Shown: positions 8,566 to 52,592, counted from the stretch's first letter. The stretch: 64,000 bases of DNA from Verrucomicrobiales bacterium (GCA_028293125.1 JAQGPJ010000005.1:1-64000); one strand, 5' to 3'. The notes: generated by a model from the sequence alone, not told the origin. Numbers and translations: made by a program.

Positions 8566-8742
8566 AGGAGGGGAGGGTTATTAGTTAATAGTTATTGGTT
8601 ATTAGTGGTGGAAAAACTGGAAAACTGGTTTTACTTGGATCGCCGAATTCGCATCCTGCCCGATTTCGCAGCACCTGCCACCCATTTCCCGGCACCCAGT
8701 TCCCAATAACCAATAACCGATAACTATTAACTCCTCTCCCCC
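8566..8742. repeat. Intergenic heptamer hairpin element (GGTTATT arm type)
   Basis: The left arm has AGGAGGGGAGGG then TTATTAGTTAATAGTTATTG. The right arm has CAATAACCAATAACCGATAA then CTATTAACTCCTCTCCCCC. They are near reverse complements separated by about 100 bp. The element fills the gap between the stop at 8552 and the start at 8754. Confidence 0.85.
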
Positions 8743-8753
8743 ATCCCTGCCCC

Positions 8754-11420
8754 ATGCCCCCCCTCTCCAGTGCCGTCCTCATCATTTTCCTCCTCACGGC
8801 CTCCCTGTCCCGGCTGGCGGCGGTGGCCCCGGCGGTGGCGGCGGGGGACGGCTTCACCCTTTTGCTGAAGGCGGACGGCACGGTGCTGGCCACGGGCGTC
8901 AATCAATCCGGGCAGCTGGGCGACGGCACGGCCACCGGCCACGGCACCCCGCAGCCAGTGGCCGGTCTGAGCGGGGTGCAGGCCATGGCGGCGGGGGCCA
9001 GCCACAGTTTGTTTCTGAAAACCGACGGGACGGTGTGGGCCGCGGGGCGGAATTATTCCGGACAGCTGGGGGACGGCACCGGGATAAATCGCAGCTCCGC
9101 TCAGCCGGTGACCGGTTTGACCGGGGTGCGGGCCATCGCCGCCGGCGATTACCACAGTTTGTTTCTGAAAACCGACGGCACGGTGTGGGTCGCCGGCCTC
9201 AACGAATCCGGCCAGCTGGGGGATGGCACCACCACCGCCCGCTTCACCCCGGTGCGGGTGATGGAGGGGATAAAGGCCATCGCGGCAGGGGCCAAAAGCA
9301 GTTTTTTCCTGAAAATGAACGGCACCGTCCGGGCCGCCGGGGAGAATGCCTCCGGGCAGCTGGGGGACGGGACTGTCAAAAACCGGCCGGTGCCAGCCCC
9401 GGTGAAGGCCTTGGGCAGCACTCAGGAGCTGACCGGGGTGGCGTCCGTTTCGGCGGGCGGCGCACACACGTTTTTCCTGAAGTCGGACGGTGCCGTTTTC
9501 GCCACCGGGCTTAATGTTTACGGTGAGCTCAGTGATGGATCCATGGTCAACCGCGCCACGCCGGTGCCGGTGCGCACCGGTGGCGTGCGGTCCGTCACGG
9601 CGGGACGGAACTGCACCTTTTTCCTTGGAACCGACGGAGTCCTGACCGGCGTGGGTTACAATGTGGTCGGCCAGCTGGGGGACGGAACGGAAACCAACCG
9701 CCCGGAACCGGTGGTGCTCATGACCAGCGTGGCATCCGTGGCCGCCGGCGGGGGCCACACCTGTTTCCTGAAAACCGACGGCACGGTGCTGGCCACCGGG
9801 GACAATTACAATGGCCAGCTGGGGGACGGCCGCATGGGTTACAGCACGGTCCCAGTGCCTGTCCCCGGACTGGCGGCCGGCGTGCAGGCGGTCTCGGCGG
9901 GGCAGTGGTGCAGCCTTTTCCTGAAAACCGACGGCACGGTCCTGGGGACGGGGCTCAATTTTTCGGGGCAATTGGGGGATGGCAGTGATATCAACCGGCG
10001 TTCCCCGGTGCCCTGCGCCATCAACGGAGTGAACCGCATCAGCGCCGGCTATTCGGTGAGTATCTTTATCAAAACCGACGGATCGGTGCATTTCTCGGGG
10101 GGAAACCTGTTCAGCCGGTTCGGCGGCAGTTACACCCGGCCGGTGGCGCTGCCCGCCGTGGGCGCGTGCTGGATGGCGTCGTCCGGGGAGCATGTCCTAT
10201 TTCTCCAAAGCGCGCGCACGGTTGCGGCGGCGGGTAACAATTTCATGGGGCAGCTGGGGGATGGAACCGGTGAGTACCGGCAGTCCCTGGTCCAGGCGGC
10301 CGGTGTCAGCGGGGCGGTCGGCGTGGCGGCAGGGTGGGATCACAGCCTTTTTCTGCTGGGGAACGGCACCGTGATGGCGTGCGGGCGCAACACCCAGGGC
10401 CAGCTGGGCGGATACTATGATTCCGATTGGGATGGCTGGAGCTACACCAGCCGTCTGAGCCCGCTGCCGGTGCAGGGCCTGTCCGGGATCACGGCGGTCG
10501 CCGCCGGCGGCTGGCACAGTTTTTTCCTGAAGGGCGACGGCACGGTGCTGGCGGCGGGATTCAACGGCACGGGCCAGCTGGGCGATGGGACCTCGATCGA
10601 CCGCTCCACTCCCGTTCCGGTGTCCGGTCTGCGGAATGTCCAGGCTGTCGCCGCCGGACATGACCACAGCCTGTTTCTGAAACAGGACGGCACGGTGTGG
10701 GCGGTCGGGGGCAACTTCAGCGGGCAGCTGGGGGATGGCACCACCACCATCCGCCTCCTCCCGGTTCCCGTGGCCGGCCTGCGGGATATCCAAGCCGTGG
10801 CGGCGGGGGACGGCGTGAGTTTTTTCCTGACAAAGAGCGGCGCGGTGCTGGTCAGCGGCACCAACTTCAACGGCGCGGCGGGGCTGGGCTCCCAGGACCG
10901 GTCCGCGCCCGTGGAGGTGCTGAACCTGGGACAGGATCCCGGCGCCTCCTGGCAGCGGGAGCAGTTCGGCGCGCTGGCCACCGATCCCGCGGTGTCCGGC
11001 TGGCTGGCGGATCCGGACAGGGACGGGGTGGTGAACCTGCTGGAACGCGCCTTCAACCTGCCCGCCCTGCAGTCAGGCCGCCCGGTCCTGACGCCGGGCG
11101 CTGGGAATGAGGAGGAGGGCAGGGCGGGCCTCCCATGGGTCACCCTTGTCTCCAAACCCCAGGGGCCGGTACTGGCCGTGCATTATGTCAGGCTGAAAAC
11201 CAAACTGGGGGCGGAGGCCCATGGCGGACTGGTTTACACCCCGGAGTTCTGCACCGCGCCGGACGGCGGAAGCGGGGGCGGGGAGGGGGGCGGCTGGACC
11301 GCCGCCACCGGCCCGGAGATGGTGGTGTCCATCGATGACCACTGGGAGCGGGTCACGGTGGAGGACACCGGCGGGGGCGGTGCGCGTTTTGCGAGAGTCA
11401 GGGTGGGGGGGAGAGGTTAA
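8754..11420 (+). CDS. Secreted RCC1-repeat (double beta-propeller) protein
   Basis: 888 residues with an N-terminal signal sequence (LIIFLLTASLSRLAAVAPA). Residues about 30-735 form a run of about 14 RCC1 / alpha-tubulin-suppressor-like units, each with AAG..HS.FLKTDGTV.A.G.N..GQLGDGT. Two are degenerate (near SRFGGSYTR and GGYYDSDWDGWSY). Fourteen units would make two seven-bladed propellers. A short linker follows (WLADPDRDGVVNLLERAFNL, a segment common in verrucomicrobial exoproteins), then a C-terminal beta-sandwich-like tail. Partners are unknown. The TAA stop lies inside the arm of the next hairpin element. Confidence 0.88.
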   Translation: MPPLSSAVLIIFLLTASLSRLAAVAPAVAAGDGFTLLLKADGTVLATGVNQSGQLGDGTATGHGTPQPVAGLSGVQAMAAGASHSLFLKTDGTVWAAGRNYSGQLGDGTGINRSSAQPVTGLTGVRAIAAGDYHSLFLKTDGTVWVAGLNESGQLGDGTTTARFTPVRVMEGIKAIAAGAKSSFFLKMNGTVRAAGENASGQLGDGTVKNRPVPAPVKALGSTQELTGVASVSAGGAHTFFLKSDGAVFATGLNVYGELSDGSMVNRATPVPVRTGGVRSVTAGRNCTFFLGTDGVLTGVGYNVVGQLGDGTETNRPEPVVLMTSVASVAAGGGHTCFLKTDGTVLATGDNYNGQLGDGRMGYSTVPVPVPGLAAGVQAVSAGQWCSLFLKTDGTVLGTGLNFSGQLGDGSDINRRSPVPCAINGVNRISAGYSVSIFIKTDGSVHFSGGNLFSRFGGSYTRPVALPAVGACWMASSGEHVLFLQSARTVAAAGNNFMGQLGDGTGEYRQSLVQAAGVSGAVGVAAGWDHSLFLLGNGTVMACGRNTQGQLGGYYDSDWDGWSYTSRLSPLPVQGLSGITAVAAGGWHSFFLKGDGTVLAAGFNGTGQLGDGTSIDRSTPVPVSGLRNVQAVAAGHDHSLFLKQDGTVWAVGGNFSGQLGDGTTTIRLLPVPVAGLRDIQAVAAGDGVSFFLTKSGAVLVSGTNFNGAAGLGSQDRSAPVEVLNLGQDPGASWQREQFGALATDPAVSGWLADPDRDGVVNLLERAFNLPALQSGRPVLTPGAGNEEEGRAGLPWVTLVSKPQGPVLAVHYVRLKTKLGAEAHGGLVYTPEFCTAPDGGSGGGEGGGWTAATGPEMVVSIDDHWERVTVEDTGGGGARFARVRVGGRG

Positions 11421-11588
11421 AGGGTTCAGGATTCAGGAGAAAAGGCTGCAGGATGGACTGAGTGGACAAACTGAAACCCGCCCGGGAGAAGAAGGGGCTG
11501 TTCCAAGCTTCTGAACATCATGAACCCATGAGCCCGACACCCAATAACCAACCATCCCCTGAACCCTGAACCCTTCAACCTCTTTTCC
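11409..11588 (+). repeat. Intergenic heptamer hairpin element (GGGTTCA arm type)
   Basis: The left arm has GGGGAGAGGTTAAAGGGTTC then AGGATTCAGG. The right arm has CCTGAACCCTGAACCC then TTCAACCTCTTTT, its near reverse complement. The inner part holds GGATGGACTGAGTGGACAAA and a degenerate CCGGGAG...GTTCC stem. The stop codon of the RCC1 gene lies in the left arm. Confidence 0.85.
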
Positions 11589-11589
11589 C

Positions 11590-12624
11590 ATGCCGCGCAC
11601 CTCCATTCTCCTGACCTTCCATCTCCTGCTGCTGCTCCTTCTCCTGAACCCCCTCACGGCACCGGGGGCGCTGGAGAGAACCCTGGTGTCCGACAAGGTG
11701 TATCCCGCCCTGAAAACGGCGGAGGCCTGCGACCGGGCGGAGCGGGAGCGGCTGCCCATCTGCTTTTGTTATCTGGGACAGTTCGCGCCCGATGCTGAGA
11801 TGCCGATGGATCTGGACCGCGTGTGGCGGGACAGCATGGATCTGCTGGCCAAGGAGTGCGTCGTGATCGTGGGCCGGCATGGGGACCGGGGCTGGGCGGA
11901 TTTTTCCCAGCTGATTCTCCGGCGGGCCGCCACCAGCCCGCGCCATAACGCTGACGGCGTGCTGCTGGTGGACTCCTGGCAGGAGGAGCGCCTGGGTCAG
12001 GCCAAGTTCCGTTCTGCCGACCCCGGCGATCCCCGGAATCTGAAGGGAGCGCTTCCCGTGTTCTCCAAGGAGGTGGCCGGGCTGTTGAAGACGGCGGCGG
12101 CCTGGAAAAAGCTCAAGCCGGAGTCCTGGCAGGACACCAAGGGCCGCGCCATCACCGCCACCGCCGTTTCATGGAACGGGAAGACCGCTGTCCTGCGCCT
12201 GCCGACCGGCAAAACGGTGAGCCTGCCCGCCGCGACCCTCTCCGCCGAGAGCGCCGGGCGGCTGTCCAAACTGTTCCGTCCCCAAGTGCCCATGGTGAAC
12301 CCCATGGATCCCGCGGAGCTGGAATCCCATCTCGGCCGGCAGGTCTGCGTGGTGGGCCGGGAGCGGAAGGTGACGCCGGTGTCCACCATGGTGACAACGG
12401 GTGATGTCAAAACCCATTATCTGTATTTCAGCTCCCATTTCGCGATGGAGTACGGGGAGTCACTCCACAATGAGATCGCAGCGAACAACCCTGACGGTTA
12501 TCCACAGGGCCGGGGCCGGCTTTACGGTGTTCTGGAAAAAGGAAAAGTCGTTGGCAGTAAGGAGATTTACGTCATCCGGCCCGCCGACACCCGGGATTTC
12601 GGCCCTGGGATGGTGCTGGAATAA
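11590..12624 (+). CDS. Exported protein with SHD1-like segment
   Basis: 344 residues with a strong signal peptide (SILLTFHLLLLLLLLNPLTA). Residues about 38-160 may be thioredoxin-like in layout (ERERLPICFCYLGQFAP ... CVVIVGRHGD) but lack a CxxC. Residues about 175-220 (WQDTKGRAITATAVSWNGKT followed by VSLPAATLS) match the pattern of SHD1 domains, common in planctomycete and verrucomicrobial exoproteins. The C-terminus is unassigned. It sits between two large exported proteins. Role unknown. Confidence 0.65.
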   Translation: MPRTSILLTFHLLLLLLLLNPLTAPGALERTLVSDKVYPALKTAEACDRAERERLPICFCYLGQFAPDAEMPMDLDRVWRDSMDLLAKECVVIVGRHGDRGWADFSQLILRRAATSPRHNADGVLLVDSWQEERLGQAKFRSADPGDPRNLKGALPVFSKEVAGLLKTAAAWKKLKPESWQDTKGRAITATAVSWNGKTAVLRLPTGKTVSLPAATLSAESAGRLSKLFRPQVPMVNPMDPAELESHLGRQVCVVGRERKVTPVSTMVTTGDVKTHYLYFSSHFAMEYGESLHNEIAANNPDGYPQGRGRLYGVLEKGKVVGSKEIYVIRPADTRDFGPGMVLE

Positions 12625-12778
12625 GGAAAGAGGGGAGGTCGGATTAAAGATTCGCGTCGGATCAGGTTATTGAGGCTTGATGGGATGACGGGATGTATTA
12701 GGGTTCTGACAAAACACAGCCGGCATGCATCAACGGGGGCCGGGCTCCGCCAAATTCCGCCAGGATTCGATTTCCCTC

Positions 12779-15625
12779 ATGATCAAACGGTCCACGTTAT
12801 CCCGCCTGCTGGCCACTGCATTTCTGGCCGCGCCGACCGTCTTTTTCTCCTCCGCGTCCTCGTGTTTTGCGGCCCCGCCCGCCAATGACAGCTTTGCCAA
12901 TGCTGTCACGCTGGTCACCGGCACCCCTCTGGAGGGCACCACCCGGGAGGCTACGCTGGAGGCCGGGGAGCCCATGCCGCCGGGCTATGATGAGGATACC
13001 TATGCCCGCACGGTGTGGTGGACCTGGATGGCTCCGGTCACGGGCCGTTTTGATATTACGGCGCGGGGCAATGGTTTCGCCGCCGTGGTGGCGGTGTGGA
13101 CCGGGGACACCCCCGGGGCACTGACGCCGGTGCCGGAGGTGGATACCGGGGTGGACAGTGGCGGAACCGCCACTGGCAGGGCCCGCATCGAGGCCAGGGC
13201 GGGCACGGTTTACCGCATCGCCACCGCCAGCCGGGGGATTGACTTTGACAGACAGGGCGCCTTCACGCTCATGGCCGCCCCCTCCCCGCCGCCGCCACCG
13301 AATGACCATTTTGCCAACCGCATCCCCCTGACCACCGGCACCCTCTGGCAGGGCCCGGCCGCCGGGGCCACGCGCGAGGCCGGGGAGCCCCGCCCGCCAT
13401 CCGGGCGCAGGGGGGATGTCTCTATCTGGTTCACCTGGACGGCACCCTCCACCGGCTGGTTTTATATTGAAAAAAGCGCCGGGTTTTTCTGGGGAGCCCA
13501 ACGGCTGGCGGCTTGGACGGGCTCTGATCCCGCCGGTCTTCAGCCGGTGCAAGCAGGGGGATATGGAAGCAACCTCCTCATGCACGCGGCGGAAGGCACC
13601 ATCTATCAGATGGCGCTGATCACGGACACCTGGGATGAGCCGCCGGAGGAGGGGACACTGATCATCCGGCCCGGCCAGGAGCACTACCGTTCACAGATCA
13701 CCTCCTTCACGGTCACGCCCGGCTTTGTGGATGTGACCGGGGAGGACCGTGTGGTGAATGTGGTATTCACGGCCAAAGCCTATGCCCTGCCGGGGAATGC
13801 CGCCGTAGTGATGCGGTTCGCGGACCGGGAAATGTCCGTTCCGTTCACCAGTGCCCATCTGACATCCGGCACGCCCATGGACGGCACGTGGACCGTGCCC
13901 ATCCTCATTCCCCGCCACTTCACACCGGCCGTTGTTTGGTTTTCAATTCAGTGGGACACCTCTGAACGGGTGGGGATGGTGGAGGATTACTATCCCTTCG
14001 CCACGCCCACTGCTCCCTATCTGAGGATCACCAATACCGGAGCGGAGGACAAAACAGAGCCGGTGCTGGCCAGTGTGGAGCTGAGCCCCGGCACCGTGGA
14101 CATCACCGAGGGCGACCGGGAGACCACCGTCACCGTCAGGGCGGTGGATGCCCTGTCGGGAGTGCGCCGGATCTCCGTGTTTTTGAAGAGGAGCCAGACC
14201 GGAATGAAGGTGTCCACCCTGGTCCTGGATGCGGCCAGCCGGGTGTCCGGGACAGCCCGGGACGGCCTTTACACCGGCACGCTGACGGTCCCCGGATACC
14301 TCCATCCGGGAGTCCACGCCTTGGAGGCCGAAGTGGAGGATCTGAACGGCAACCGGCGGGAGTGGTCGGCGGAGAAGGGCAATCCCCTGCCGGGTCCCTC
14401 CAGTGGCGGAATCACCGTGCGGCGGGACACGCGGATCCACATCCGCTCCCTCACCGCGGACCCCGACCCGCTGGATATGACCGCCGGGAGCCGGGACCTC
14501 ACCGTCACCTTCCGCCTGACGGCGGACAAAGGGGCGGTGCTCAGCAGCAGCAGCTTTCTCCGGTTTGATGCCGACGGGGTGCCGGGCGGGCCGGCCCTGC
14601 GTCCTGTGAACTTCGGCGCACCCGACCGCATCCAAGGCACGGACGCCGACGGGATCTATCAGGTGCGGTTTGTGGTGCCGGAGGGCATGCCTCCGGGGGA
14701 CTATCAGGCGTCCCTTTACACGCAGTGGGTTATTTTCGGAGCGTTCTCGCAGCAGGGCTGGGATTCCCACGGATGGAAAAATCCGGATGAGACCGGGGAG
14801 CTGTATCCTTGGCCGGCCGGGGTGCCGCAGACCGTGCGGGTGGTCAACCATGGCACGGTGGACACGGAGGCGCCCACCGCGGAGCTGACGGTGCCGAATC
14901 CCGTCATGATCAGGGAGAAATCGAAGGACGGCGGGGGATGGAGGCTGGATTACCAGCTCACCGTCACCGACAACGTGGACCGATCCCCCGGCAGTTATAT
15001 TTACATGACCGACGGGCAGGGCGGGGAATGGCCCGGTGATTACGGCGGTTTCCGCCCTTTGCGGATGGACGTCCGGACCCCGCCGGGCAGCTATTTTCTG
15101 GCCGTGATGACCGTGGATGAGGTGGGCAACACCCGCACTTGGCGCAGTGACATGCCGGACTTTCCGGGGCCGTTCCGCGGGGCCGTCACCGTCCCCGTGG
15201 CCATCGATATGGCTCCCTTCTGGAGCGCGTGGAAGGCTGAGGTCTTTAACACCGCGCAGGCCGACGATGCCGCCATCAGCGGGGAGAACGCCGACCCGGA
15301 CGCCGATGGCCTGACCAATCTGATGGAGTATGCCCTTGGCCTACCCCCGCTGCAGCCGGACAACCCCGCCGCGGCCATGCCGGAGCTCGTGCGTCCGGAG
15401 GGGGGCGGCAGCGGCCTGCAGCTCCGCTGCACCCGCGCCGCCGGCCGCCGGGACCTGATCTGGACGGTGCAGGAGGCGCCCACCCCGTCCGGCCCATGGA
15501 CCCCCATCCAGATAGACCCCCAGGTGCCCCAGGAGACCAACGTCGCCCGGGAGACTATTTTCTGGCACATCTCCCCCTCCGCCACCGGCACTGGCTTCCT
15601 GCGGCTGCAAATCACGCGGCACTGA
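12779..15625 (+). CDS. Large secreted multidomain beta-sandwich protein
   Basis: 949 residues from ATG 12779, chosen because it begins a signal peptide (MIKRSTLSRLLATAFLAAPT ... CFA). Two related N-terminal modules (ANDSFANAVTLVTGTPLEGT ... VWWTWMAPVTG and PNDHFANRIPLTTGTLW ... IWFTWTAPSTG) are of a type common in Verrucomicrobiota. Three or four Ig-like segments follow (ELSPGTVDITEGDRETTVTV, LTADPDPLDMTAGSRDLTVT). Near the end is GNTRTWRSDMPDFPGPFRG, then an Asp-rich NADPDADGLTNLMEYALGL linker and a closing domain ending GTGFLRLQITRH. Probably surface-associated. Function unknown. Confidence 0.8.
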   Translation: MIKRSTLSRLLATAFLAAPTVFFSSASSCFAAPPANDSFANAVTLVTGTPLEGTTREATLEAGEPMPPGYDEDTYARTVWWTWMAPVTGRFDITARGNGFAAVVAVWTGDTPGALTPVPEVDTGVDSGGTATGRARIEARAGTVYRIATASRGIDFDRQGAFTLMAAPSPPPPPNDHFANRIPLTTGTLWQGPAAGATREAGEPRPPSGRRGDVSIWFTWTAPSTGWFYIEKSAGFFWGAQRLAAWTGSDPAGLQPVQAGGYGSNLLMHAAEGTIYQMALITDTWDEPPEEGTLIIRPGQEHYRSQITSFTVTPGFVDVTGEDRVVNVVFTAKAYALPGNAAVVMRFADREMSVPFTSAHLTSGTPMDGTWTVPILIPRHFTPAVVWFSIQWDTSERVGMVEDYYPFATPTAPYLRITNTGAEDKTEPVLASVELSPGTVDITEGDRETTVTVRAVDALSGVRRISVFLKRSQTGMKVSTLVLDAASRVSGTARDGLYTGTLTVPGYLHPGVHALEAEVEDLNGNRREWSAEKGNPLPGPSSGGITVRRDTRIHIRSLTADPDPLDMTAGSRDLTVTFRLTADKGAVLSSSSFLRFDADGVPGGPALRPVNFGAPDRIQGTDADGIYQVRFVVPEGMPPGDYQASLYTQWVIFGAFSQQGWDSHGWKNPDETGELYPWPAGVPQTVRVVNHGTVDTEAPTAELTVPNPVMIREKSKDGGGWRLDYQLTVTDNVDRSPGSYIYMTDGQGGEWPGDYGGFRPLRMDVRTPPGSYFLAVMTVDEVGNTRTWRSDMPDFPGPFRGAVTVPVAIDMAPFWSAWKAEVFNTAQADDAAISGENADPDADGLTNLMEYALGLPPLQPDNPAAAMPELVRPEGGGSGLQLRCTRAAGRRDLIWTVQEAPTPSGPWTPIQIDPQVPQETNVARETIFWHISPSATGTGFLRLQITRH

Positions 15626-16009
15626 GGAAGGGGAGCGGCGGGGGCGATTCCCAGTCCGTCCATGGAGCGGGTGATGCGGGCGCGGGAGACGCGAGCCTCC
15701 GTGAGGCTGCTGGCCACCTCACGCAGGCGCGGGGCATCATCGGTTTCAGATCAGGCGTTTTGCAAAACCGGATTTCCGCGTGGCAGGGGTGGCTTCGCTC
15801 TTGTCGGGCATCGGCGCATGCCGGCATCTTCAGTCACCAGCGGACAAGCCGGATGCCATTAGGGACGTGAAGCGGGAGGACAATTGGCGTCCTGCCGCTT
15901 CGCTTCCATGGCCTTTTGTAAATAGGACCGATGCATCGCTGACCGGAAACCGGAGCACACCTTCTTCGGAAGGCAGCAGCCTTGCGGCACCATAAAATAC
16001 ATTATGGGG
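15626..16009. other. Intergenic, 384 bp, no gene
   Basis: Lies between convergent genes. Nothing convincing is seen. The minus strand at about 15640-15720 can be read as DAPRLREVASSLTEARVSRA without a start, which might be a gene remnant, but I cannot identify it. Confidence 0.4.
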
Positions 16010-17347: not shown

Positions 17348-18020
17348 GGCGGGCGGGGTCGCGGATGACATAACCGGAACCCCGGACGGTGTGCACCAGC
17401 GCCGGGCCGCGTGCGTGGAGTTTTTCCCGCAGGCGGTACACGGTCACATCCACCACGTTGCTCATGGCGTCGAAATTCTCATCCCATGCATGCTCGGTGA
17501 GTGTGGTGCGTGAAATCACCCGGCCCTTGTGCCTGAGCAGATATTCGAGGATGGCGAACTCCTTCGCTGTCAGTCCCACCGCGTGCCCGCCACGGGTCAC
17601 GGTTCTGGCGTGCGGGTCCAGGAGGACATCGTCGGCGCGCAGGCGGACATCCGGCTCGGGCGAGGAGCGCCGCAGCAGAGCGTGGACGCGCGCCAGCAGC
17701 TCCTCGAAGTCGAAAGGTTTTTTCAGATAATCATCCGCCCCGCTGTTCAGTCCGCGCACGCGGTCCGCCAGCCCGCCGCGCGCGGTGAGCATCAGCACGG
17801 GCGTCCGCCTTCCCTTCGACCGGAGTTTCTCCAGCACCTGAAATCCATCCATGCCCGGCAGCATCACATCAAGCACAATGGCATCGTAATCGTTCTCCGC
17901 CGCCTGCCACGCGCCCTCGCCGCCCTCGTCGGCGGTGTCCACCGCGAAGCCCTCCTCGCGCAATCCCCGCGCAAGCAGCGCGGAGAGCTTGCGGTCATCC
18001 TCAATAAGCAGAAGTCGCAT
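17337..18020 (-). CDS. OmpR/PhoB-family response regulator
   Basis: 227 residues from ATG 18020 (MRLLLIEDDRKLSALLARGL). The receiver domain carries acidic residues at 8-9, phospho-acceptor Asp51 (VLDVMLPGMDG), Thr79 and the DDYLKKPF lysine near 100. The C-terminal winged helix includes TEHAWDENFDAMSNVVDVTV and ends VRGSGYVIRDP, close to the CusR/CopR pattern. It is co-transcribed and overlapping with the kinase. Four direct/inverted half sites in the divergent promoter gap (18059-18107) are its likely binding site. Confidence 0.92.
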   Translation of the reverse strand: MRLLLIEDDRKLSALLARGLREEGFAVDTADEGGEGAWQAAENDYDAIVLDVMLPGMDGFQVLEKLRSKGRRTPVLMLTARGGLADRVRGLNSGADDYLKKPFDFEELLARVHALLRRSSPEPDVRLRADDVLLDPHARTVTRGGHAVGLTAKEFAILEYLLRHKGRVISRTTLTEHAWDENFDAMSNVVDVTVYRLREKLHARGPALVHTVRGSGYVIRDPARHEP

Positions 18021-18058
18021 GATGAAATGGTTCCGGAATGGGGGTTTCGTCTTCCTGA

Positions 18059-24464: not shown

Positions 24465-24562
24465 AAGTGGACTGGGTGGACTAGATGAACAGCGTGTAAG
24501 TTCTGGAGCGTGAAGACGCTGTTTCAGACTTCTGAACCCTGAACCCTTTAACCTCCTCCCCC
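24465..24562 (+). repeat. Half heptamer hairpin element (nonamer, core stem, CTGAACC arm)
   Basis: AGTGGACTGGGTGGAC, then a core stem CTGGAGCG...CGCTG, then TTCTGAACCCTGAACCC and TTTAACCTCCTCCCCC. The matching left arm is missing, so this is a truncated copy. It precedes the 3' end of the minus-strand histidine phosphatase gene. Confidence 0.7.
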
Positions 24563-25109: not shown

Positions 25110-25270
25110 TGGAGGGGGAGAGGTTAAAGGGTTCAGGGTTCAGGGTTCAGGCGGGTTATTGGTTATTAAGTGCCGGGCACGGCACCTTGGCGCTTCAAGC
25201 GTCGGCCAGCGTTCATTTAGTCCACCCAGTCCACCCAGTCCACTCTGAACCCTGAACCCTTTAACCTCTC
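25110..25270 (-). repeat. Intergenic heptamer hairpin element (GGGTTCA arm type)
   Basis: The left arm has GGAGGGGGAGAGGTTAAAGG then GTTCAGGGTTCAGGGTTCAG. The right arm has CTGAACCCTGAACCC then TTTAACCTCTC, its reverse complement. An extra GGTTATTGGTTATTAAG lies inside the left arm, and three GTCCACCCA nonamers lie beside the right arm, so the inner part reads on the minus strand. Confidence 0.85.
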
Positions 25271-29514: not shown

Positions 29515-29936
29515 TCACCTTGCGTGCGGTTCAACAGCATATTTCCTCTCACCGCCAGGAATGTGGGATAACTCCACCCGTGACCATACGCTCCCCGGGG
29601 CCGAATCCGTCGGATCGGCAATACTGGGTGGTGGCACGCTCTCTAAAAAGCAGATTTTAAGAATTATTAATCCGGTATCGAATTGGGCGACACACCCCAT
29701 GATTTTGCATGAAAAACGCGATGGATGGAGGCTGGACCGCAAAACGATGGATAATGATCCGATGGAACGCGCTGCGGACGATTTGGCCGTCATGAAGCGC
29801 TGGCTCCGCTTCATCCTCAGCTTTTTCGAACAGCCGGACACGGCGTAAGTCCACCACGCCGCCCAACCCGATACCGCATTGGTAATAACCAATAACTGGC
29901 AACCACTAACTCTTCCCTGTCTCCCTCCCCCTCACT
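29515..29936. other. Intergenic, 422 bp, possible short ORF and a half repeat
   Basis: A plus-strand frame at 29699-29848 (MILHEKRDGWRLDRKTMDND ... LRFILSFFEQPDTA, 49 residues) could be a small protein or a remnant; support is weak. At 29881-29931 lies a lone GGTTATT-type arm in reverse sense (TAATAACCAATAACTGGCAA then a C-rich tract), an incomplete member of the heptamer hairpin family. Confidence 0.4.
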
Positions 29937-43692: not shown

Positions 43693-43823
43693 TTGGATGG
43701 ACTGAGTGGATGGGGTGCACGGGATGGACGGGATGGAATGAGTGGACTCCGAGGCCCTTGGCCGGAGCACGGAGGGCCTGCCGCTGAACTCTAAACTCTG
43801 AAAACTGAAAACTCCTCCCTCCG
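43693..43823 (+). repeat. Heptamer hairpin element, partial (AGTTTTC arm type, right half)
   Basis: GGATGGACTGAGTGGATGGG, GGATGGAATGAGTGGACTCC, a core CCGGAGCACGGAGGGCC, then CTGAACTCTAAACTCTGAAA and ACTGAAAACTCCTCCCTCC. The left arm is not evident. The 298-bp gap 43578-43875 otherwise shows nothing. Confidence 0.75.
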
Positions 43824-43875
43824 CTTTCCATCGTTGAATTCACAGGGCCGGAAAAAAGGACAGTGCCCGGATGAA

Positions 43876-45333: not shown

Positions 45334-45387
45334 ACGAAGTGGACCCGGTGATGGGATCACAGCCGGCGCACGCCGGGCGTTCGGTCC

Positions 45388-45951
45388 TCACCGGGAACCG
45401 GCGATGAAATCAATCGTGACCATGGGCACATTATCAATCTCTGCGGTTCGATAGAACACGCGAAACACCTTTGACGGATCAACCCGCAGGAACAGCACCG
45501 AGCCGCCCACACTGAAGTCGCCGACGGGCTCCCCCTGAGTGCCACCAGTCACGGCGCATGTCCGCAAATCCTCCGGAGCCCAGGCCGCCAGCAGGCAGCC
45601 CGAGGGGAATGACAGGCTGATCCCGGAGTCCACAAGACTGCCGGCGGAGCGGTTCAGGCAGTCGGTCAGCACTTCGGATGGCAGAAAATCATCGGCCCAG
45701 TAATGCATGAGGGAAATTTGATCCCCCATGGGTATAAGGGCCGCACTGCCGGCGCTCCCGGTATGCCAGATCACGGCTTTGCCCGGCCCGACCGCCATTT
45801 CCGCCACACGGCTGTCTCCCACCGTTTCACAGGCGGATTCATAGTTCGCCCCGTCCTCCGAGACACCCTTCCACAGGGATAGAATGTTCAGATCCCCGAT
45901 GATGAAGGGGCCACCCTCGCTGCTGATGTAATGGAATCCGTTGTCCGGCAT
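45388..45951 (-). CDS. Imm21-like protein (possible orphan immunity protein)
   Basis: 187 residues, soluble. The order EGGPFIIGDLNILSLWKGVS, NYESAC, EMAVGPGKAVIWHTGSAGSA and ISLMHYWADD resembles Imm21 immunity proteins of polymorphic toxin systems (GGPLI..., W.G, DY..AC, VG.G.ALV). The match is from memory and not strong. No toxin gene is next to it. The C-terminal half (VFRVFYRTAEIDNVPMVTID) is unassigned. Confidence 0.5.
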   Translation of the reverse strand: MPDNGFHYISSEGGPFIIGDLNILSLWKGVSEDGANYESACETVGDSRVAEMAVGPGKAVIWHTGSAGSAALIPMGDQISLMHYWADDFLPSEVLTDCLNRSAGSLVDSGISLSFPSGCLLAAWAPEDLRTCAVTGGTQGEPVGDFSVGGSVLFLRVDPSKVFRVFYRTAEIDNVPMVTIDFIAGSR

Positions 45952-46056
45952 GGCTGTTGAAGGAACGACGCGCCGGCCATGGACGCATGGCGGGAGCGGA
46001 CAGGCAATCGGGATGCCACCGCCCGTGACGCCAGTACCCGGGAAACGACACCCGCC

Positions 46057-46536
46057 TTAAAGAGAGGTGTCGGCCAGGCAGTGAGTCCCGGACGAGTGCA
46101 TGCCCAGAATGACGATGCGCCGGTAGCCGGCCTGCCGCATCCAGCCGGTGACCTTCTCCACTTCCTGCCTGATGACGGGTTTGTCATCCCACATGACGGA
46201 CTTGCCGAACTCCACCACCACCAAGTTTTTGTGCTTCTCGGTTTGCAGAAAATATCCGATCTGGTCAAATTTAAGCATGATGGGGGAGTCCCGCCACACC
46301 GGAAAAACATCATCCCCTTTCACCACGCCGCCGAGTCCCAGATCGAAACGCCCCCCGCCGTCATAGCGGAGAACGCGGTCGGCGCTTGCCTGCAGTTTGA
46401 ACACGCGGTCCGCCGTTGGTTTTCCATCCTCCGGAAAGACGGAGTAAAACCCGGGCTCAAGACGGCGGTGCACGCAGCCTGCTTGGAAAGCCAGCAGGAT
46501 CAGGAGAAGGGGGAGAAGGGAGGTCAAAGGTTTCAA
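46057..46536 (-). CDS. Small lipoprotein, hypothetical
   Basis: 159 residues. A type II signal peptide ends LLLILLAFQAGC, giving lipid-modified Cys21. The body (FYSVFPEDGKPTADRVFKLQ, DDVFPVWRDSPIMLKFDQIG, QEVEKVTGWMRQAGYRRIVI) suggests a small beta-rich domain followed by helices. Read in the same direction as the Imm21-like gene and 105 bp upstream of it. No family is recognised. Confidence 0.6.
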   Translation of the reverse strand: MKPLTSLLPLLLILLAFQAGCVHRRLEPGFYSVFPEDGKPTADRVFKLQASADRVLRYDGGGRFDLGLGGVVKGDDVFPVWRDSPIMLKFDQIGYFLQTEKHKNLVVVEFGKSVMWDDKPVIRQEVEKVTGWMRQAGYRRIVILGMHSSGTHCLADTSL

Positions 46537-46539
46537 TAG

Positions 46540-46731
46540 GGGAGGGAAGGTGGAAGGGGGGTGGATGGTTATTGGTTATTGGTTAATGGTTATTAGGGTG
46601 GAAAGATGGATGGAGTGGACGGGATGGACAAACTGAAAGCGGTCCGGAGCGGATGGCGGTGCTCCGGGTTTCTGAACCCTGTGGGTCCATGACCCAATAA
46701 CCAATACCCAATAACCCATCAACCCTCCCCC
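46540..46731 (+). repeat. Intergenic heptamer hairpin element (GGTTATT arm type)
   Basis: The left arm has GGATGGTTATTGGTTATTGG then TTAATGGTTATTAG. The right arm has CCAATAACCAATACCCAATA then ACCCATCAACCCTCCCCC. The inner part has GGATGGACAAACTGAAAGCG and the stem CCGGAGC...GCTCCGG followed by TTTCTGAACCC. The right arm contains the stop codon of the minus-strand GloVer reading frame (46719). Confidence 0.88.
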
Positions 46732-47017
46732 TGCCCCTGCCCCTCCCCCGAAACCACCGCCCGCAGCCGGACAAAGGATTTCCCAGCCTGCGCCGGAGGC
46801 AGGACGCAGCGGATCAGGTTGAACTCTGTGCCGGTGGATTCCTCAATCACCACTCCCGGACCGGAATCGGCGGTGGTTTTCCCCAGTTTGAGTGACTGCC
46901 AGTGGGTCAGGTCCGTGGAGGTCTCGGCCGCGAGGCTGATGCCGGGGTCTTCCGCCGCATCCGGAGCTCGGTGGAATTCCAAGGCCGGTGGGCCGCCCCC
47001 GGTGCTGTCCAGTCCGG

Positions 47018-48760
47018 TCAGCCGGGGCAGGACTTCAGGGGAGGGCTGGCGGGGATCCGCGCCGAGGACGTATTCCAAGGCGTTGGCAGGCCGTCGGCAT
47101 CCGGGTCCGCGCCGGGCAGGGCCTCCGCTCCGGTGAAGCCGTGGGCGGCCAGCCAGGGGGCCAGGCCGCGCTCGGAGGTGGTGAAGCTGAGGATCTCCCC
47201 AGTCTGGGGGTTCGTGTTGTCCGGATTCACGGCGCGCAGCCGGTAATGATAGGTGGTGGCCGGCTCCAGTCCCCGCAGGAAGGCGGTGACAGGCTGCTCC
47301 CCGTCCAGCACGGCGGGGGAAGTAACCGGCAGGGCGAGGCTTCCGGTCAGCGCCGGATCGGTGCTGTAATCCAGAAACACCTCGGAGGCGGAATCATTGG
47401 AATGCACGGTGCCGGGGATGCGGGCCGTTGTGGCGGAGACAGAAGCGGGCGGCAGGGTGTGCGGCAGGGGGCCGAGATGCAGGCGGAAGATCTGCCCGCG
47501 TCCCGCCGGGCTGCCGTCCGCCAGCACGCCGCCCCGCTGGGCCACGCCGTAAAAATGGCCGTCGGTGTGCTTCAGCAGCGGGGCGGAGGGAAGCCATTCT
47601 CCGGGAGCCGCGCCGCCAAGCCTTGTCAGTTGGTGCAGGATCACGGTCCGGTGGGTGTCGCGGGCCGTTTTGTAGATGATTTCGCCACCGGCGGTGCCCC
47701 ACATCCATCCAGCCCCGTCATGGACCAGATTCCCCGCCACACTGCCCGGGGGCTCACTGATGCCGGTGAAGGCGCCTGTGGCGGCGGCGTTTATTTTGTA
47801 GATCGCTCCCTTCGTGCTGCTGGTCGCGTTCGTGACCCCCCACAGAAAGCCTAGTCCGTCCTTGGCAAGACCCGTGATCGGAAGGACCGGTCTCGACCCG
47901 GCGGGAATCCCCAATTCCCACACATTGGTGAACGCGCCGGAGCCGGCATCCAGTTTGAACAGGCTGCCCCGGACTTCCGTGCCGCCATAAAAGGTGGTGC
48001 CCCAAATACTGCTCAGGCCGTCGCTGGCAAGGCCGGGATTGGGAGTCAGGCCCACTGCGGCCCCGGTGGCTCCCGTGAAGGTGGTGACGGTGGTGAAGGC
48101 TCCCGTGTCCGTATGGATTTTGAACACGGTCCCCAGGGATGCCTCCCCGCCCCCGTAGTCGCCCCGGGTGACACCCCAGATATTGCCCTGTCCGTCAAGG
48201 AAGGGCGCGCCGCCGGGATAACGTCCATCCGAGGCTCCGGTGAAGTCCCTGACAGTGGTCAGCACCCCACTGGCCGGATCCACGCGGAACACCGTGCCGA
48301 AATCCGCGCCGCCGCCCTGCCGGCTGAATCCCCAGAGCCGGCCCTGGTTGTCCATGGTCAGGCCTCCGTCCAGCGCTGTGCCCTTGGCGGACCCGGTCCG
48401 GCCGGTGAAGACAAGACGGCGGGTCACCTCGCCGGTGCGGGGATCCAAGGTATAGAGACCGCCGTATCCAAGGGTGCCGTGCCCGCCCTGATCGGCGATA
48501 TCCGCTCCTCCCCACAGCAGGCCCTGACTGTCCGCGGTCAGGGCGGTGGCGGGCGCCCCCAGCCCCGGCGCTCCGACGCCCCCCAAGCCGGTGACCAGCG
48601 ACCAAGTGTCCGTCGCTGGATCGATGGCATAGACCGTTCCCCGGTTGCCCGGGCCGCCCCTTTCGGTCATTCCACGCAGTTTGCCGTCCGGGGCCAGGAT
48701 CAGTCCGGTGGATGGAATCCTGCCGGGGAACGCTCCCTCCCCAGCCGTGAACATCACCAC
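47018..48760 (-). CDS. GloVer repeat protein, middle piece
   Basis: 580 residues starting artificially at a Met (MVMFTAGEGAFPGRIPSTGL) with no signal peptide. GloVer repeats run to about residue 440, then a fibronectin-III-like domain (EPATTYHYRLRAVNPDNTNP). It ends out of frame at TPWNTSSARIPASPPLKSCP. The correct end lies in the neighbouring frame, 46719-47078. Confidence 0.75.
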   Translation of the reverse strand: MVMFTAGEGAFPGRIPSTGLILAPDGKLRGMTERGGPGNRGTVYAIDPATDTWSLVTGLGGVGAPGLGAPATALTADSQGLLWGGADIADQGGHGTLGYGGLYTLDPRTGEVTRRLVFTGRTGSAKGTALDGGLTMDNQGRLWGFSRQGGGADFGTVFRVDPASGVLTTVRDFTGASDGRYPGGAPFLDGQGNIWGVTRGDYGGGEASLGTVFKIHTDTGAFTTVTTFTGATGAAVGLTPNPGLASDGLSSIWGTTFYGGTEVRGSLFKLDAGSGAFTNVWELGIPAGSRPVLPITGLAKDGLGFLWGVTNATSSTKGAIYKINAAATGAFTGISEPPGSVAGNLVHDGAGWMWGTAGGEIIYKTARDTHRTVILHQLTRLGGAAPGEWLPSAPLLKHTDGHFYGVAQRGGVLADGSPAGRGQIFRLHLGPLPHTLPPASVSATTARIPGTVHSNDSASEVFLDYSTDPALTGSLALPVTSPAVLDGEQPVTAFLRGLEPATTYHYRLRAVNPDNTNPQTGEILSFTTSERGLAPWLAAHGFTGAEALPGADPDADGLPTPWNTSSARIPASPPLKSCPG

Positions 48761-49848
48761 CGTCCGGAATTCCCGGTCTGAATATTCACTTTGAAGACTG
48801 TGCCCGCCCCGAAATATCCCGAGCCCATGGAAATCCCTCCCTCATCAGTGGTGCCCCACATCCATCCCCGGCCGTCGGCGCACAGGGCGGTGGACGGCCT
48901 GCTGGTCTTGATGCCTCCGCCCGTGACGGTGTCCGGGATGTCGGCGACAATGGTCAGCGCTCCGGTCGCGGTCTCCACCTTGTAGACGGTGCCCATCCCA
49001 TAGGCTCCCGCCTCCGCCGTGGTTCCCCAGAAAAAGCCCTTTCCATCCGGACTGAGCCCCCCCACAGGCCGCCGTCCCCGGTCCCATCCGAAGGCGGCCA
49101 CCGTGGTGCGGATGCCGGTGGGGACGCTGATTTTATAAACTGAGCCGTCAACGTCGCCATTGCCGTTGGGGGACTGCCCCCAGAGAAACCCCAGTCCGTC
49201 GGCCGCCAAGTCCGGTGCCGCCTCCTGCTCCCGGGGAACGGTGCTCAGCAGGGTGAGAGCGCCGGACACCGGGTCCAGCCGATGGAGGGAGGTTTCCTTC
49301 ACACCCTTCTCAAAGTTGTTCGTCACGGTCAGGAACCAAAAATGAACCTGGCCATCCGGGACCAGATTCGATACCGGGACCGTGCTGAAATTCGCGCCGG
49401 GAAGTGTGTTGAATTCAATGACCTCCACATACTGCCCGGAAGCCGGGGTGAAGTGGAAAATGGCGGCGATGGCAGCGGAGGAGGGCTTGCTGGCGATCCC
49501 CCACAGTCTCCCCGCGGCGTCGGACACCAGCCTTTCCGACGGTCTGGTGGACCCGGTGAAACCGTCAAGCGGATACACCAGGCGGGCGACAGCCGCCACC
49601 CGCCCGTCGGGGGAGATCCGGTAAAGGAGACCGGGACCGCCTCCCTCTATATTGCTGTCGCCACCGTGGAAATTCCCGTCCGTATGCAGCGTAAGCCGCC
49701 CGCGCACCGGGTTTGCCAGGCTGGCGGGAAAACCAGCCAGCGGCTGGTAAATGCTCCCGTTCGCGGCGGAGGCGGTTACGGGCAACAGGGCGGGAAGCAG
49801 GAAAGTCAGGACAGGCAACAGCCTCGACAGCAGGCGGTGGGCGGACAT
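48754..49848 (-). CDS. GloVer repeat protein, N-terminal piece
   Basis: 364 residues from ATG 49848 (MSAHRLLSRLLPVLTFLLPA). It carries repeats such as GLLYRISPDGRVAAVARLVY and GMGTVYKVETATGALTIVAD and stops at NIQTGNSGRW because of the frameshift. The continuing sequence in the next frame reads EFRTVVMFTAGEGAF. An open frame begins 12 codons further upstream, but the signal peptide fixes this start. Confidence 0.75.
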   Translation of the reverse strand: MSAHRLLSRLLPVLTFLLPALLPVTASAANGSIYQPLAGFPASLANPVRGRLTLHTDGNFHGGDSNIEGGGPGLLYRISPDGRVAAVARLVYPLDGFTGSTRPSERLVSDAAGRLWGIASKPSSAAIAAIFHFTPASGQYVEVIEFNTLPGANFSTVPVSNLVPDGQVHFWFLTVTNNFEKGVKETSLHRLDPVSGALTLLSTVPREQEAAPDLAADGLGFLWGQSPNGNGDVDGSVYKISVPTGIRTTVAAFGWDRGRRPVGGLSPDGKGFFWGTTAEAGAYGMGTVYKVETATGALTIVADIPDTVTGGGIKTSRPSTALCADGRGWMWGTTDEGGISMGSGYFGAGTVFKVNIQTGNSGRW

Positions 49849-49898
49849 TGCAATTTGATAGTAAGGTTCATGCTCACAGTCCAAGGCGAAAAGGAGGG

Positions 49899-50098
49899 CG
49901 GGGGAAGGTGAAAGGGTTCAGGGTTCAGGGTTCAGATGGAAGGGGGTGGATGGTTATTGGTTATTAGGGTGGAAAGATGGACTGAGTGGACTGAGTGGAC
50001 TGAGTGGACGGGATGGACTGAAAGTTGCCCGGAGCGGGAAGGCGTTGCTCCAAAGGTCTGAAAACTGAAAAATGAAAAACTGAAAACTCCCCCGCCCC
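49899..50098 (+). repeat. Composite heptamer hairpin element with three nonamers
   Basis: The left side has GGGTTCAGGGTTCAGGGTTC then GGTTATTGGTTATTAGGG. The inner part has three or four GGACTGAGT nonamers and a CCGGAGC...TTGCTCC stem. The right side has TCTGAAAACTGAAAAATGAA then AAACTGAAAACTCCCCC. It carries all three heptamer types in one copy. It fills most of the gap 49849-50178 between divergent genes. Confidence 0.88.
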
Positions 50099-50178
50099 TT
50101 TTCCGATAGCGGGCCGTAAAGGAATGACGGACCGGTTTCCCCGTTCCATCCTTTTCCCTCCCTGCCCCCCCCGCCCGC

Positions 50179-50799
50179 ATGACCTCATTGCCTGCCCCTG
50201 TCCGCGAATTCGCGGAATTCGCCCGGACCTGGTTGCGGTCCCCCCGCCGGATGGGGGCCATCGCACCCTCCGGACCCGGTCTGGCGCGGGTCATCACCGC
50301 CGGCATATCGCGATCCACGGGGCCGGTGCTGGAGTTGGGGCCCGGCACGGGGGTCTTCACCCGCGCTTTGGTGGCCAAGGGGGTGCCGGAGGAGAATCTG
50401 ACCCTGCTGGAGCGGGATCCACGCTTCGCCCGCCGGCTGCGGACCCAGTTTCCCGGGGCGCGGGTCATTTCCGGCTGCGCCACCGCGCTTGATGAGATGC
50501 CGGGGCCCGTATCCGGCTCCGATTCAGGCTCCGGCTCCGGCCCGTGCTTTGGTGCCGTGGTCAGCGGGCTGCCGCTGCTGTCCCTGCCGCCGGCGGACGT
50601 GCGGCGCATCATCAGCGGTGCCTTCACCCATCTGGACGCGGGGCGGCCGCTTTACCAGTTCACCTACCGGCCCGTTTGCCCGGTGCCGCGGGATGTGCTG
50701 CGGGACCTGGGGCTGGAGGCGCGGCTGACGGGATTCAGCCTGCGTAATCTGCCGCCGGCGTGGGTTTATGCGTTGCGGCGGCGGGCGGGGAGGGGGTGA
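50179..50799 (+). CDS. Class I SAM-dependent methyltransferase, phospholipid N-methyltransferase-like
   Basis: 206 residues. SAM site VLELGPGTGVFTRAL (about 50-64), acidic residue in LTLLERDPRF, and motif IV-like FGAVVSGLPLLSLP. The opening (RTWLRSPRRMGAIAPSGPGL) is typical of PmtA / ribosomal-adenine-dimethylase-like phospholipid methyltransferases. Inserted before motif IV is a low-complexity GSDSGSGSGP tract encoded by GGCTCC/GATTCA hexamers. The likely role is methylation of phosphatidylethanolamine, but no specificity can be read from sequence alone. The stop lies in the G-rich border of the next repeat element. Confidence 0.8.
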   Translation: MTSLPAPVREFAEFARTWLRSPRRMGAIAPSGPGLARVITAGISRSTGPVLELGPGTGVFTRALVAKGVPEENLTLLERDPRFARRLRTQFPGARVISGCATALDEMPGPVSGSDSGSGSGPCFGAVVSGLPLLSLPPADVRRIISGAFTHLDAGRPLYQFTYRPVCPVPRDVLRDLGLEARLTGFSLRNLPPAWVYALRRRAGRG

Positions 50800-50893
50800 G
50801 GGGGAAGAGTTCTCAGTTTTCAGTTTTCAGAAATCCGGAGCTGCGTCCTGCGCTTTGGAAATAGGGTTGCGTCAGTCCATCCCGTCCATCCGG
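50788..50893 (-). repeat. Half heptamer hairpin element (AGTTTTC arm type)
   Basis: GGGGAGGGGGTGAGGGGGAA, then TCAGTTTTCAGTTTTCAGAA, a core ATCCGGAGCTG and CAGTCCATCCCGTCCATCC. Read on the minus strand it has the standard order nonamer, core, CTGAAAAC arm. The partner arm is missing. Confidence 0.75.
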
Positions 50894-51105
50894 AACCCTG
50901 TCAAAAACAGGAATACGACTGAAAACAAAGCTTATCCTGTAACTGCCGGCCCGTGCTGCCGGAGCAGCCTCCAGGCGGCGGCCTGAACCAGTTTCCACCG
51001 ATTTGACAAACACACTCCCAGGCGATAGAATAACCGCACCACCCGATGGTCTGTTCCCACGGTGCCAACCCTCCTCTGGAAGGAGCACGCACCAAGGAAA
51101 TTGCG

Positions 51106-51149
51106 GCCCCGGCTGCTTGGGATTCTGACAGTCCCGTGGCAGCCGGGGC
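51106..51149. terminator. Strong stem-loop terminator followed by T-rich tract
   Basis: GCCCCGGCTGC (51106-51116) pairs with GCAGCCGGGGC (51139-51149), with an inner GGGA/TCCC stem and the loop TTCTGACAG. TGATTTATTTT follows. It lies between the methyltransferase gene and the convergent HTH gene. The remaining gap 50894-51105 shows nothing recognisable. Confidence 0.8.
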
Positions 51150-51188
51150 TGATTTATTTTGGGTGGCCGGCGTTTGTGCCAGTGTGGC

Positions 51189-51536
51189 CTACGCCACGCC
51201 CCGCGCCCGGCAGTAGGCGTCGAGATCCCGCTGGTAAACGTGGCGGCGTCGGAGACCAGGGCGGTGGGAGCGGATGGCGCCGCTGGCCATGAGGCGCTGG
51301 GCCTGGCGGACGCCGATGCCTAGGCGGGCGGCGACATCGGCCACGCTGAGCAGGGCCTCCCCCAGGCGCGGCGTTACGGTCGTGCGCAGCTGGAAAAGGT
51401 CGGCCCGTCCGGGGATGGGCGTCACCTGATGGGAGACGGCGAAACCCAGATCCGCAGGGGGGCGGGCGGGCGGGGGAGGAGGAAAAGGAGTGGAAACAGG
51501 GGCGGAGGAGAAGCGGGAATCCGATGCCGGTGCCAT
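51189..51536 (-). CDS. Helix-turn-helix DNA-binding protein (excisionase-like)
   Basis: 115 residues. A Pro-rich N-terminal region (FPPPPPARPPADLG) is followed by a winged-helix/MerR-like HTH (LLSVADVAARLGIGVRQAQR) and a closing segment typical of excisionase-type HTH_17 proteins (SHRPGLRRRHVYQRDLDAYC). It marks the left edge of the phage-like block and is read against the structural genes. It could be a regulator of that block or an excisionase without its integrase. Confidence 0.7.
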   Translation of the reverse strand: MAPASDSRFSSAPVSTPFPPPPPARPPADLGFAVSHQVTPIPGRADLFQLRTTVTPRLGEALLSVADVAARLGIGVRQAQRLMASGAIRSHRPGLRRRHVYQRDLDAYCRARGVA

Positions 51537-51667
51537 AGTGTTTAACAGATAGAGAGGAACGGATTGATTGCAAGGAAATGAGGCGGAAATTAAGAAAAAT
51601 CAGGGCGTCTTTTTGGGATGGAAACCGCGTGTGCTTGGAGAGTTTCACAGCGGCCTTGGGCAGCAGC

Positions 51668-51890
51668 GGGGTAGAACAGGCGTCCCGCCTGTCCCGCCGG
51701 GCATCCTGCCCGGTGCCCTTGCCCTGGCAGCTGTTATCTACCTTGGCGACTTCTGCCGGCTTGATTTTAAAGGAGAAAACACCTTTGAGGCGGATTCTGT
51801 TCAGGGCTGGCGGTCTTCTGCGGAGGGTGCCGGGGCATCGGCACCGGGCGGGACGCCCGGCGGGACAGGCGGGACGCCTGTTCCACCCGG
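51668..51890. repeat. Inverted pair of AACAGGCG-family REP-like hairpins
   Basis: Copy 1 at 51668-51718 (GGGGTAGAACAGGCGTCCCG, then CCTGTCCCGCCGGGCATCCT). Copy 2 at 51841-51890 is the reverse complement (CGGGACAGGCGGGACGCCTG, then TTCCACCCGG). They face each other about 120 bp apart in the 508-bp gap 51537-52044, which holds no supported gene. The core word is the same as in the hairpin at 39994-40097. Confidence 0.8.
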
Positions 51891-52044
51891 AGAGCTTCCC
51901 GGCTTCGCCGGAAATCGGTTGTTTTGGAGTGGATAGATCATCATTCTGCACTTTTATGTCGCCTGTGTCGTCTATGACGCTAAAGTCCGGTTTTTGTGGT
52001 GGAAAGAGCGGGCGGACAGGCCGGGGAGAGGGCAGGGTGGGGGC

Positions 52045-52425
52045 ATGATCTCCGACGCTCTTTCCACTGTCACCGCCACCGCCACTTCCGCCGCCGGGGC
52101 GGTCTCCGACTGCTTCACGGACTGGCCCGCCCTCATCGCCGCCGTGTTCGCCGGTCTCTCCGGCATGGTCACGCTGGTCTTCGGCCTGCGGGCCAAAGCC
52201 CGGCAGGCGGAGGCCGCCACTGAGTTGGCCCTGATCCGGGCGCGCATGGAGGCGGCGGCGGAGCACGCCGCGGACGCCAGCCAGCAAGCCCTGCGCACCG
52301 CTCAATCCGTGCAGGAAAGCCGCGAGGAGCGGCACTGCCAGATCGACGGCGTCCGCGCGGATCTGGGACGGTTGAGGGCGGAGTTTCAGGGTGGTCAGCA
52401 GGACGGGAATCAGGGGGAAGGCTGA
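52045..52425 (+). CDS. Small membrane protein with coiled-coil tail (phage block)
   Basis: 126 residues from ATG 52045 (MISDALSTVTATATSAAGAV). One TM segment at about 28-48 (PALIAAVFAGLSGMVTLVFG), followed by a charged, Ala-rich helical tail (KARQAEAATELALIRARMEA) likely to form a coiled coil. Placed just before the packaging genes, as holin-like or small Mu proteins often are, but no lysis partner is seen. Function unknown. Confidence 0.6.
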   Translation: MISDALSTVTATATSAAGAVSDCFTDWPALIAAVFAGLSGMVTLVFGLRAKARQAEAATELALIRARMEAAAEHAADASQQALRTAQSVQESREERHCQIDGVRADLGRLRAEFQGGQQDGNQGEG

Positions 52426-52592
52426 GGGGCGGGGGGGAGGAGTTTTCAGTTTTCAGTTTTCAGCGGCGTGGCGCGGTGCCTTTCCGCTCCGTCCATCCAG
52501 TCCACCCAGTCCACAGTCCACTCAGTCCACCAGACCCATCACCCAGCGCCCAGTACACCAGCACCCTGAAAACTGAAAACTGAAAACTTTTC
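52426..52592 (-). repeat. Intergenic heptamer hairpin element (AGTTTTC arm type) between phage genes
   Basis: The left arm has GGGGCGGGGGGGAGGAGTTT then TCAGTTTTCAGTTTTCAG. The right arm has CTGAAAACTGAAAACTGAAA. Between them lie several GTCCACCCA-type nonamers and a CCGCTCC core, so the inner part reads on the minus strand. Its arms are the best matched of this heptamer type in the window. Confidence 0.88.

Follow-up and report, generated by a model that had tools for sequence, protein, structure and literature searches.

Heptamer-armed hairpins between the genes of a Verrucomicrobiales bacterium: probable non-coding relatives of elements that encode 23S rRNA intervening-sequence proteins

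What are the hairpins, with arms of tandemly repeated heptanucleotides, that recur between genes of a Verrucomicrobiales bacterium? The stretch analysed here (termed the window) comprises 64,000 nucleotides, contig C38:1-64000, of a 99%-complete, 6.48-Mb genome in 120 contigs, C38 itself measuring 82 kb. An earlier note on this DNA described about a dozen such hairpins and offered three identities for them--REP/BIME-like elements (repetitive extragenic palindromes and their mosaics), non-autonomous mobile elements or long RNA terminators--of which the second fits best; what it missed is the connection of the hairpins to genes for an intervening-sequence protein (IVP). On the evidence below, the window's elements are probably non-autonomous, non-coding mobile hairpins, resembling miniature inverted-repeat transposable elements (MITEs), that belong to a heptamer-arm family with IVP-coding members and are intergenic relatives of the intervening sequence (IVS) of 23S rRNA.

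IVP genes within heptamer arms

The connection is seen most directly elsewhere in the same genome, at C19:49975-50385, where an element encloses an open reading frame (ORF) for a four-helix-bundle protein, the 23S rRNA intervening-sequence protein (PF05635/TIGR02436); the genome has no other PF05635 gene. This ORF is flanked by perfect 31-nt arms, AGGTAAAAGGGTTCAGGGTTCAGGTTTCAGA and its reverse complement (score 26), and the heptamers and border of the element are those of many non-coding elements. Ends matching those of non-coding elements are carried by an element that encodes an IVP, which is not a known transposase; the window's non-coding elements contain no PF05635/TIGR02436 ORF.

Several IVP genes of family-level relatives likewise lie within inverted arms of period 7, though with other units (GAACGTT, GGTTGAT and GATTTTT). 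Across the phylum, in which the PF05635 family is present in 221 of 289 genomes, 45 IVP genes from 40 genomes were compared with 230 control ORFs from the same stretches: an arm score of at least 14 is reached by 33 of the IVP genes versus 10 of the controls (p ~7e-24), and lag-7 periodicity is found in 80% versus 17%, no other lag between 4 and 12 rising comparably. A further 79 IVP loci, from many bacterial phyla and including two archaeal contigs, show inverted arms at 54, versus 9 of 324 control genes (p ~6e-38). These arms are mostly 7-nt-periodic, the signal standing at lags 7 and 14 with a slight rise at lag 8, and a few elements are clearly built of 8-mers.

The two arms of an element match each other rather than those of other elements: the left flank of an IVP gene matches its own right flank in 43 of 79 cases, versus 13 of 948 when paired with the flank of another IVP locus. 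Many different heptamers occur among IVP elements, and both arms change in concert: arm sequence varies while complementarity persists, which is covariation in the ordinary meaning of the word. The consensus of the arm unit is AG(T/G)NN(T)Y (A at 0.80, G at 0.94), and G exceeds C in the left arm in 81 of 87 cases. Triplets of the heptamer AGTGGYY are found genome-wide in 7 of 9 genomes that have this unit in their IVP arms (2 to 100 matches) versus 2 of 15 others, so that the heptamer of an IVP element tends to equal that of the scattered repeats of the same genome. IVP genes are also co-directional with both neighbours more often (94 of 119) than background genes (269 of 486), which suggests a constraint at the transcript level. 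A tblastn search with one IVP against annotated phages gave no match; IMG/VR contigs, which are possibly host contamination, do hold armed IVP genes (16 of 19 examined score at least 12, some being near-duplicates). In Riemerella, an IVP element (L365:3908-4481) lies between an iron-sulfur assembly gene and sufB.

Filled and empty sites

Comparison of filled and empty junctions on Nostocales plasmids reveals IVP elements inserted as discrete units at stop codons. At site 1, which lies ahead of a VirB10 gene, the empty sequence AAAAAGTAATTAACAAATAAATATG of N. linckia and Aulosira corresponds to AAAAAGTAAT-element-GTAATTAACAAATAAATATG in Trichormus and Scytonema, the flanks being 97-98% identical and GTAAT being duplicated; at site 2, TTTAGGTTCTAGGTTATGC on pNsp_c corresponds to TTTAGGTTCTA-element-TTCTAGTTATGC on pNsp_a, with duplication of TTCTA. 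Both of these 5-bp direct duplications overlap the stop codon, and a gapless alignment of the two elements covers 419 bp (78%) and ends at the arms, the flanks being unrelated. At two further cyanobacterial sites the element has taken the place of about 10 bp and 45 bp of target, respectively, with no duplication. IVP elements also occupy the gap between cas6 and cas4 on type I-D CRISPR plasmids of Anabaena sp. 90 and Pseudanabaena galeata, a gap that is element-free and 5-23 bp long in Stanieria and Nostoc UHCC 0302. (A Dolichospermum UHCC 0315A plasmid, 98.9% identical to that of Anabaena 90 around cas6-cas4, has a hairpin of another family, GTAGGTTGGGTTGA..TTAACCCAACCTAC, at this junction, L368:1436-1665.) Non-coding members insert as well, and can nest, as is indicated by a heptamer hairpin of pNsp_a whose site is empty in pNsp_c and which has a shorter, un-nested form in pNPM1.

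Within the window's own genus, the gene ahead of the element at C110:11034 has homologues on contig C48 and in four relatives, all of which have a stop codon and terminator of their own and are element-free; the element at C110:3681 is absent from the corresponding site in relative G003. For the elements of this genome, mobility is argued by homology and from their dispersion, from nesting, and from sites that are empty in paralogues or relatives, rather than from target duplications.

These junctions bear on the idea that nothing here is mobile: heptamers would grow by replication slippage and invert by template switching, giving simple repeats to which IVP genes home in. Arm copy number does vary clearly between related copies, and among simple repeats of 5-11 nt the heptamers form the most frequent category in most surveyed genomes, according to work cited in PMC4679880. 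Most empty sites, however, are short gaps (3-50 bp) without heptamers, arms and IVP gene arrive as one unit, and a non-coding element has an empty site too; slippage as the whole explanation is therefore unlikely, and for the plasmid cases it is largely refuted.

The window's elements and their setting

A de novo scan of the window found 13 inverted repeats scoring at least 13, versus 1-2 in Markov shuffles, and 5 of the 13 have 7-nt-periodic arms (8583-8732, 11412-11583, 25118-25270, 46567-46716 and 52441-52588). The elements are as follows, no strand being assigned; those beginning at 5114, 24465 and 29881 are recognized from their sequence.

5114-5239: imperfect element with arms of the GTTATTA class, G- and C-rich borders and a short core; weak own-arm score, 9.5
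8577-8732: complete element with GTTATTG/A arms (8577-8606 and 8703-8732) and a 102-nt core, occupying the gap between two genes
11412-11583: complete composite with GGGTTCA arms outermost, TGGAC nonamers and conserved core, and CCAATAACC at the inner right
24465-24562: half element with TGGAC nonamers and right arm CTGAACCCTGAACCCTTTAACC, without a left arm
25118-25270: complete element with GGGTTCA arms (29 nt, 97% complementary) enclosing a GTTATT array and nonamers
29881-29931: lone right arm TAATAACCAATAAC with C-rich border
43693-43823: half element with a TGGACNNNN nonamer array (43695-43737) and right arm (TGAAAAC)2
46558-46725: complete element with GTTATTG arms and conserved core TGGACAAACTGAAAG..CGGAGC..GCTCC
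49899-50098: composite with mismatched arms (GGGTTCA x3, GTTATT x2, TGGACTGAG x5, and at the right TGAAAAC x4); own-arm score only 8
50788-50893: left arm GTTTTCA with G-rich border; right side decayed
52436-52593: complete element with three perfect GTTTTCA/TGAAAAC heptamers per arm and core nonamers, ending about 1 nt ahead of the next start codon
62890-63560: doubtful member with similar borders, weak GTTATT arms and an AT-rich core of about 600 bp without IVP similarity

The picture of a dozen gaps filled by hairpins of one design thus holds for five strong, 7-nt-periodic inverted repeats; two others are weaker or mismatched, the rest are half-elements, and 62890-63560 is doubtful. Nor do the arms share a single sequence: three heptamer classes (GTTATTG/A, GGGTTCA and GTTTTCA) are present, together with nonamers (TGGACTGAG). 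Many cores carry a common module, (TGGACNNNN)n-TGGACAAACTGAAAG-CCGGAGC..GCTCC, and nonamer arrays of the TGGACNNNN type (43695-43737, 49978-50021 and 52491-52531) give the cores a second period, of 9 nt. Composites look nested, with GTTATTG arrays lying within GGGTTCA arms. At L070:1998-2172 and L241:1997-2160, the elements that follow two paralogous genes (89% identical) have a similar arm but different cores, which suggests turnover of the core at one site.

Further copies, for which the earlier note proposed a genome search, are plentiful: strict triple-heptamer matches number 70 genome-wide, versus 2 for the reversed pattern, and fall into about 49 loci. C38, which is 1.3% of the genome, carries nine of the loci (binomial p ~1e-8), so that the window is a hot spot. 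Wherever an element has both arms, the G-rich arm is on the left. No match of the window to Rfam exceeds the gathering score, and RNAalifold gave no consensus structure for 12 aligned elements, gaps and nesting probably spoiling the alignment; matching of arms in cis was therefore tested instead, and 26 of 28 classifiable elements pair arms of one heptamer class versus about 32% expected. The terminal inverted repeats, which MITEs have as well, form a long stem as in IVS, and the RNA folds of two elements are far stabler than those of shuffled sequences (z -7.4 for 25118-25270, -5.1 for 52436-52593).

All of the window's elements are intergenic and none lies in 23S rRNA; with genes called by a simple ORF rule, the median distance from the outer end of an element is 7 nt to a stop codon and 20 nt to a start codon. 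This adjacency to stop codons, together with the stable folds, is what long intrinsic terminators or RNA-processing hairpins serving gene expression (G-quadruplex or RNase III signals) might be expected to show, and the heptamers of Xanthomonas are described as largely transcribed and as forming quadruplexes in vitro (PMC4692102). Yet convergent genes are not preferred: flanking genes are co-directional in 19 cases, convergent in 7 and divergent in 4, which follows the background (169/63/54), and some elements are found ahead of starts or in the gap of a divergent gene pair. Moreover, the aligned cores show no conserved fold, and the element-bearing locus C110:11034 lacks the intrinsic terminator that its element-free homologues carry. 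A terminator or processing role as the explanation is accordingly improbable.

Still less probable is mobilization of REP/BIME-like elements by a REP-associated transposase (RAYT) of the Y1 type: the elements are indeed short, imperfect intergenic palindromes in many copies, with GGAG in their borders, but tandem heptamer arms are unlike the REP design and no Y1 transposase (PF01797) was found in this 99%-complete genome. Hairpins occupying single-gene gaps also recall the attC sites of integron cassette arrays, a reading with next to no probability; neighbouring arms differ in sequence and lack fixed core sites, and the flanks include housekeeping-type genes. The best integron integrase hit in the genome scores 79 bits against a cut-off of 265, so that none passes; with intI absent and no end sequences shared, attC sites are refuted.

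Several other features of the neighbourhood stand apart. A phage-like block (51207-59824) has a 70-80% identical paralogue in the same genome (C57:18000-26370), which gave no clean empty site. A separate repeat family at 51669-51888, with 61-bp inverted arms (90%) and dozens of copies genome-wide, is also present in relatives G001 and G003, several copies lying at contig ends. A large ORF (5-3889) holds long tandem repeats at 634-2014 and 2089-2650 (198- and 213-bp units).

Known systems and a possible mechanism

The nearest described system is the 23S rRNA IVS with its S23p/IVP ORF, as in Coxiella and Leptospira, which likewise places terminal inverted repeats around one four-helix-bundle ORF. 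In Coxiella, two or three tandem heptamers (GACAGAT), variable in number among strains, precede the IVP ORF, and the element has been described as selfish; rRNA intervening sequences are known to be excised from the transcript by RNase III (PMC4990558). By contrast, the elements here adjoin stop codons between genes, are mostly non-coding, use many heptamer types and number dozens of copies per genome. By analogy they may work like an IVS, yet, being intergenic throughout the window, they are not rRNA IVS. With MITEs they share their short, non-coding form, terminal inverted repeats, many intergenic copies and nesting, but their arms consist of tandem repeats and vary from copy to copy, their target duplication is inconsistent and no cognate enzyme is assigned.

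Heptamers have also been reported without reference to IVP. PMC4692102 describes tandem GGGAATC and GGGGA(C/T)T in Xanthomonas and Nostoc; each Xanthomonas genome contains 70-75 convergent inverted pairs, and the repeats are G-rich where they follow stops and C-rich where they precede starts. There they are read as quadruplexes and reported as generally unlinked to mobile elements, the parts consulted drawing no IVP connection. TAACTGA repeats of Beggiatoaceae, Cyanobacteria and Bacteroidetes, with mixed heptamers and indels in 7-nt steps, differ in being mainly direct repeats ahead of start codons, read as translational control (PMC4679880); in another phase, the reverse complement of TAACTGA is AGTTATC, which fits the AG-N5 unit of IVP arms. 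The earlier note's statement that no family of this design had been described therefore needs qualifying, given the Xanthomonas inverted pairs and the Coxiella heptamers beside an IVS ORF. Beyond Coxiella, no connection of intergenic heptamers to IVP was found in the open-licence literature, older cyanobacterial work on short tandem repeats lying beyond the search.

Some observations weigh against kinship with, and mobilization by, IVP elements. About one third of IVP genes have no clear arms at the threshold used; this genome has one IVP gene versus about 49 or more heptamer loci, the heptamer-rich relative G001 (68%-complete) yielded none, and the window's non-coding elements show no IVP remnant. 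Target duplication is seen at only 2 of 5 resolvable cyanobacterial sites, the others having lost about 10-45 bp of target, and none was demonstrated for the elements of this genome; across IVP loci, flanking duplications of at least 5 nt are shared in 20% versus 12%, which is weakly positive.

If the window's elements nonetheless belong with IVP elements, they would move as the cyanobacterial plasmid elements do. The IVP of Xanthomonas (XCC0516, PDB 2GSC, found as a structural match) is a five-membered ring (PMC4990558). Such a ring-shaped pentamer might recognize arms having AG at every seventh nucleotide and mobilize coding and non-coding copies in trans, cutting and joining presumably being left to one or more host enzymes; alternatively, the IVP would be just a passenger. 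Replication slippage would then alter arm length, insertions would be tolerated only in gaps between genes, and the transcript hairpin may be a substrate of RNase III, as for rRNA intervening sequences. A related four-helix-bundle pentamer fold is that of Avd, which acts with the reverse transcriptase of diversity-generating retroelements. Avd, however, is not among the PDB matches of IVP, and no reverse transcriptase (PF00078) scored above the cut-off in this genome.

It is possible, though short of probable, that a single pan-bacterial superfamily of coding and non-coding mobile hairpins exists, having AG-N5 arms and mobilized by a ring-shaped four-helix-bundle protein without a known recombinase, of which the heptamers of cyanobacteria, Xanthomonas, Beggiatoaceae and Verrucomicrobiota and the 23S rRNA IVS are all footprints. 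The window's elements are best classed as the non-autonomous members of a new, intergenic variant of IVS/IVP elements. This would give a common explanation for heptanucleotide repeats long reported separately as quadruplexes, translation signals or slippage products, and would make a very common, unexplained protein family a likely mark of a mobile element. Precise filled and empty pairs are available for studying the chemistry of insertion, and the findings suggest that the intervening sequences of rRNA represent one particular landing site of the IVP element.

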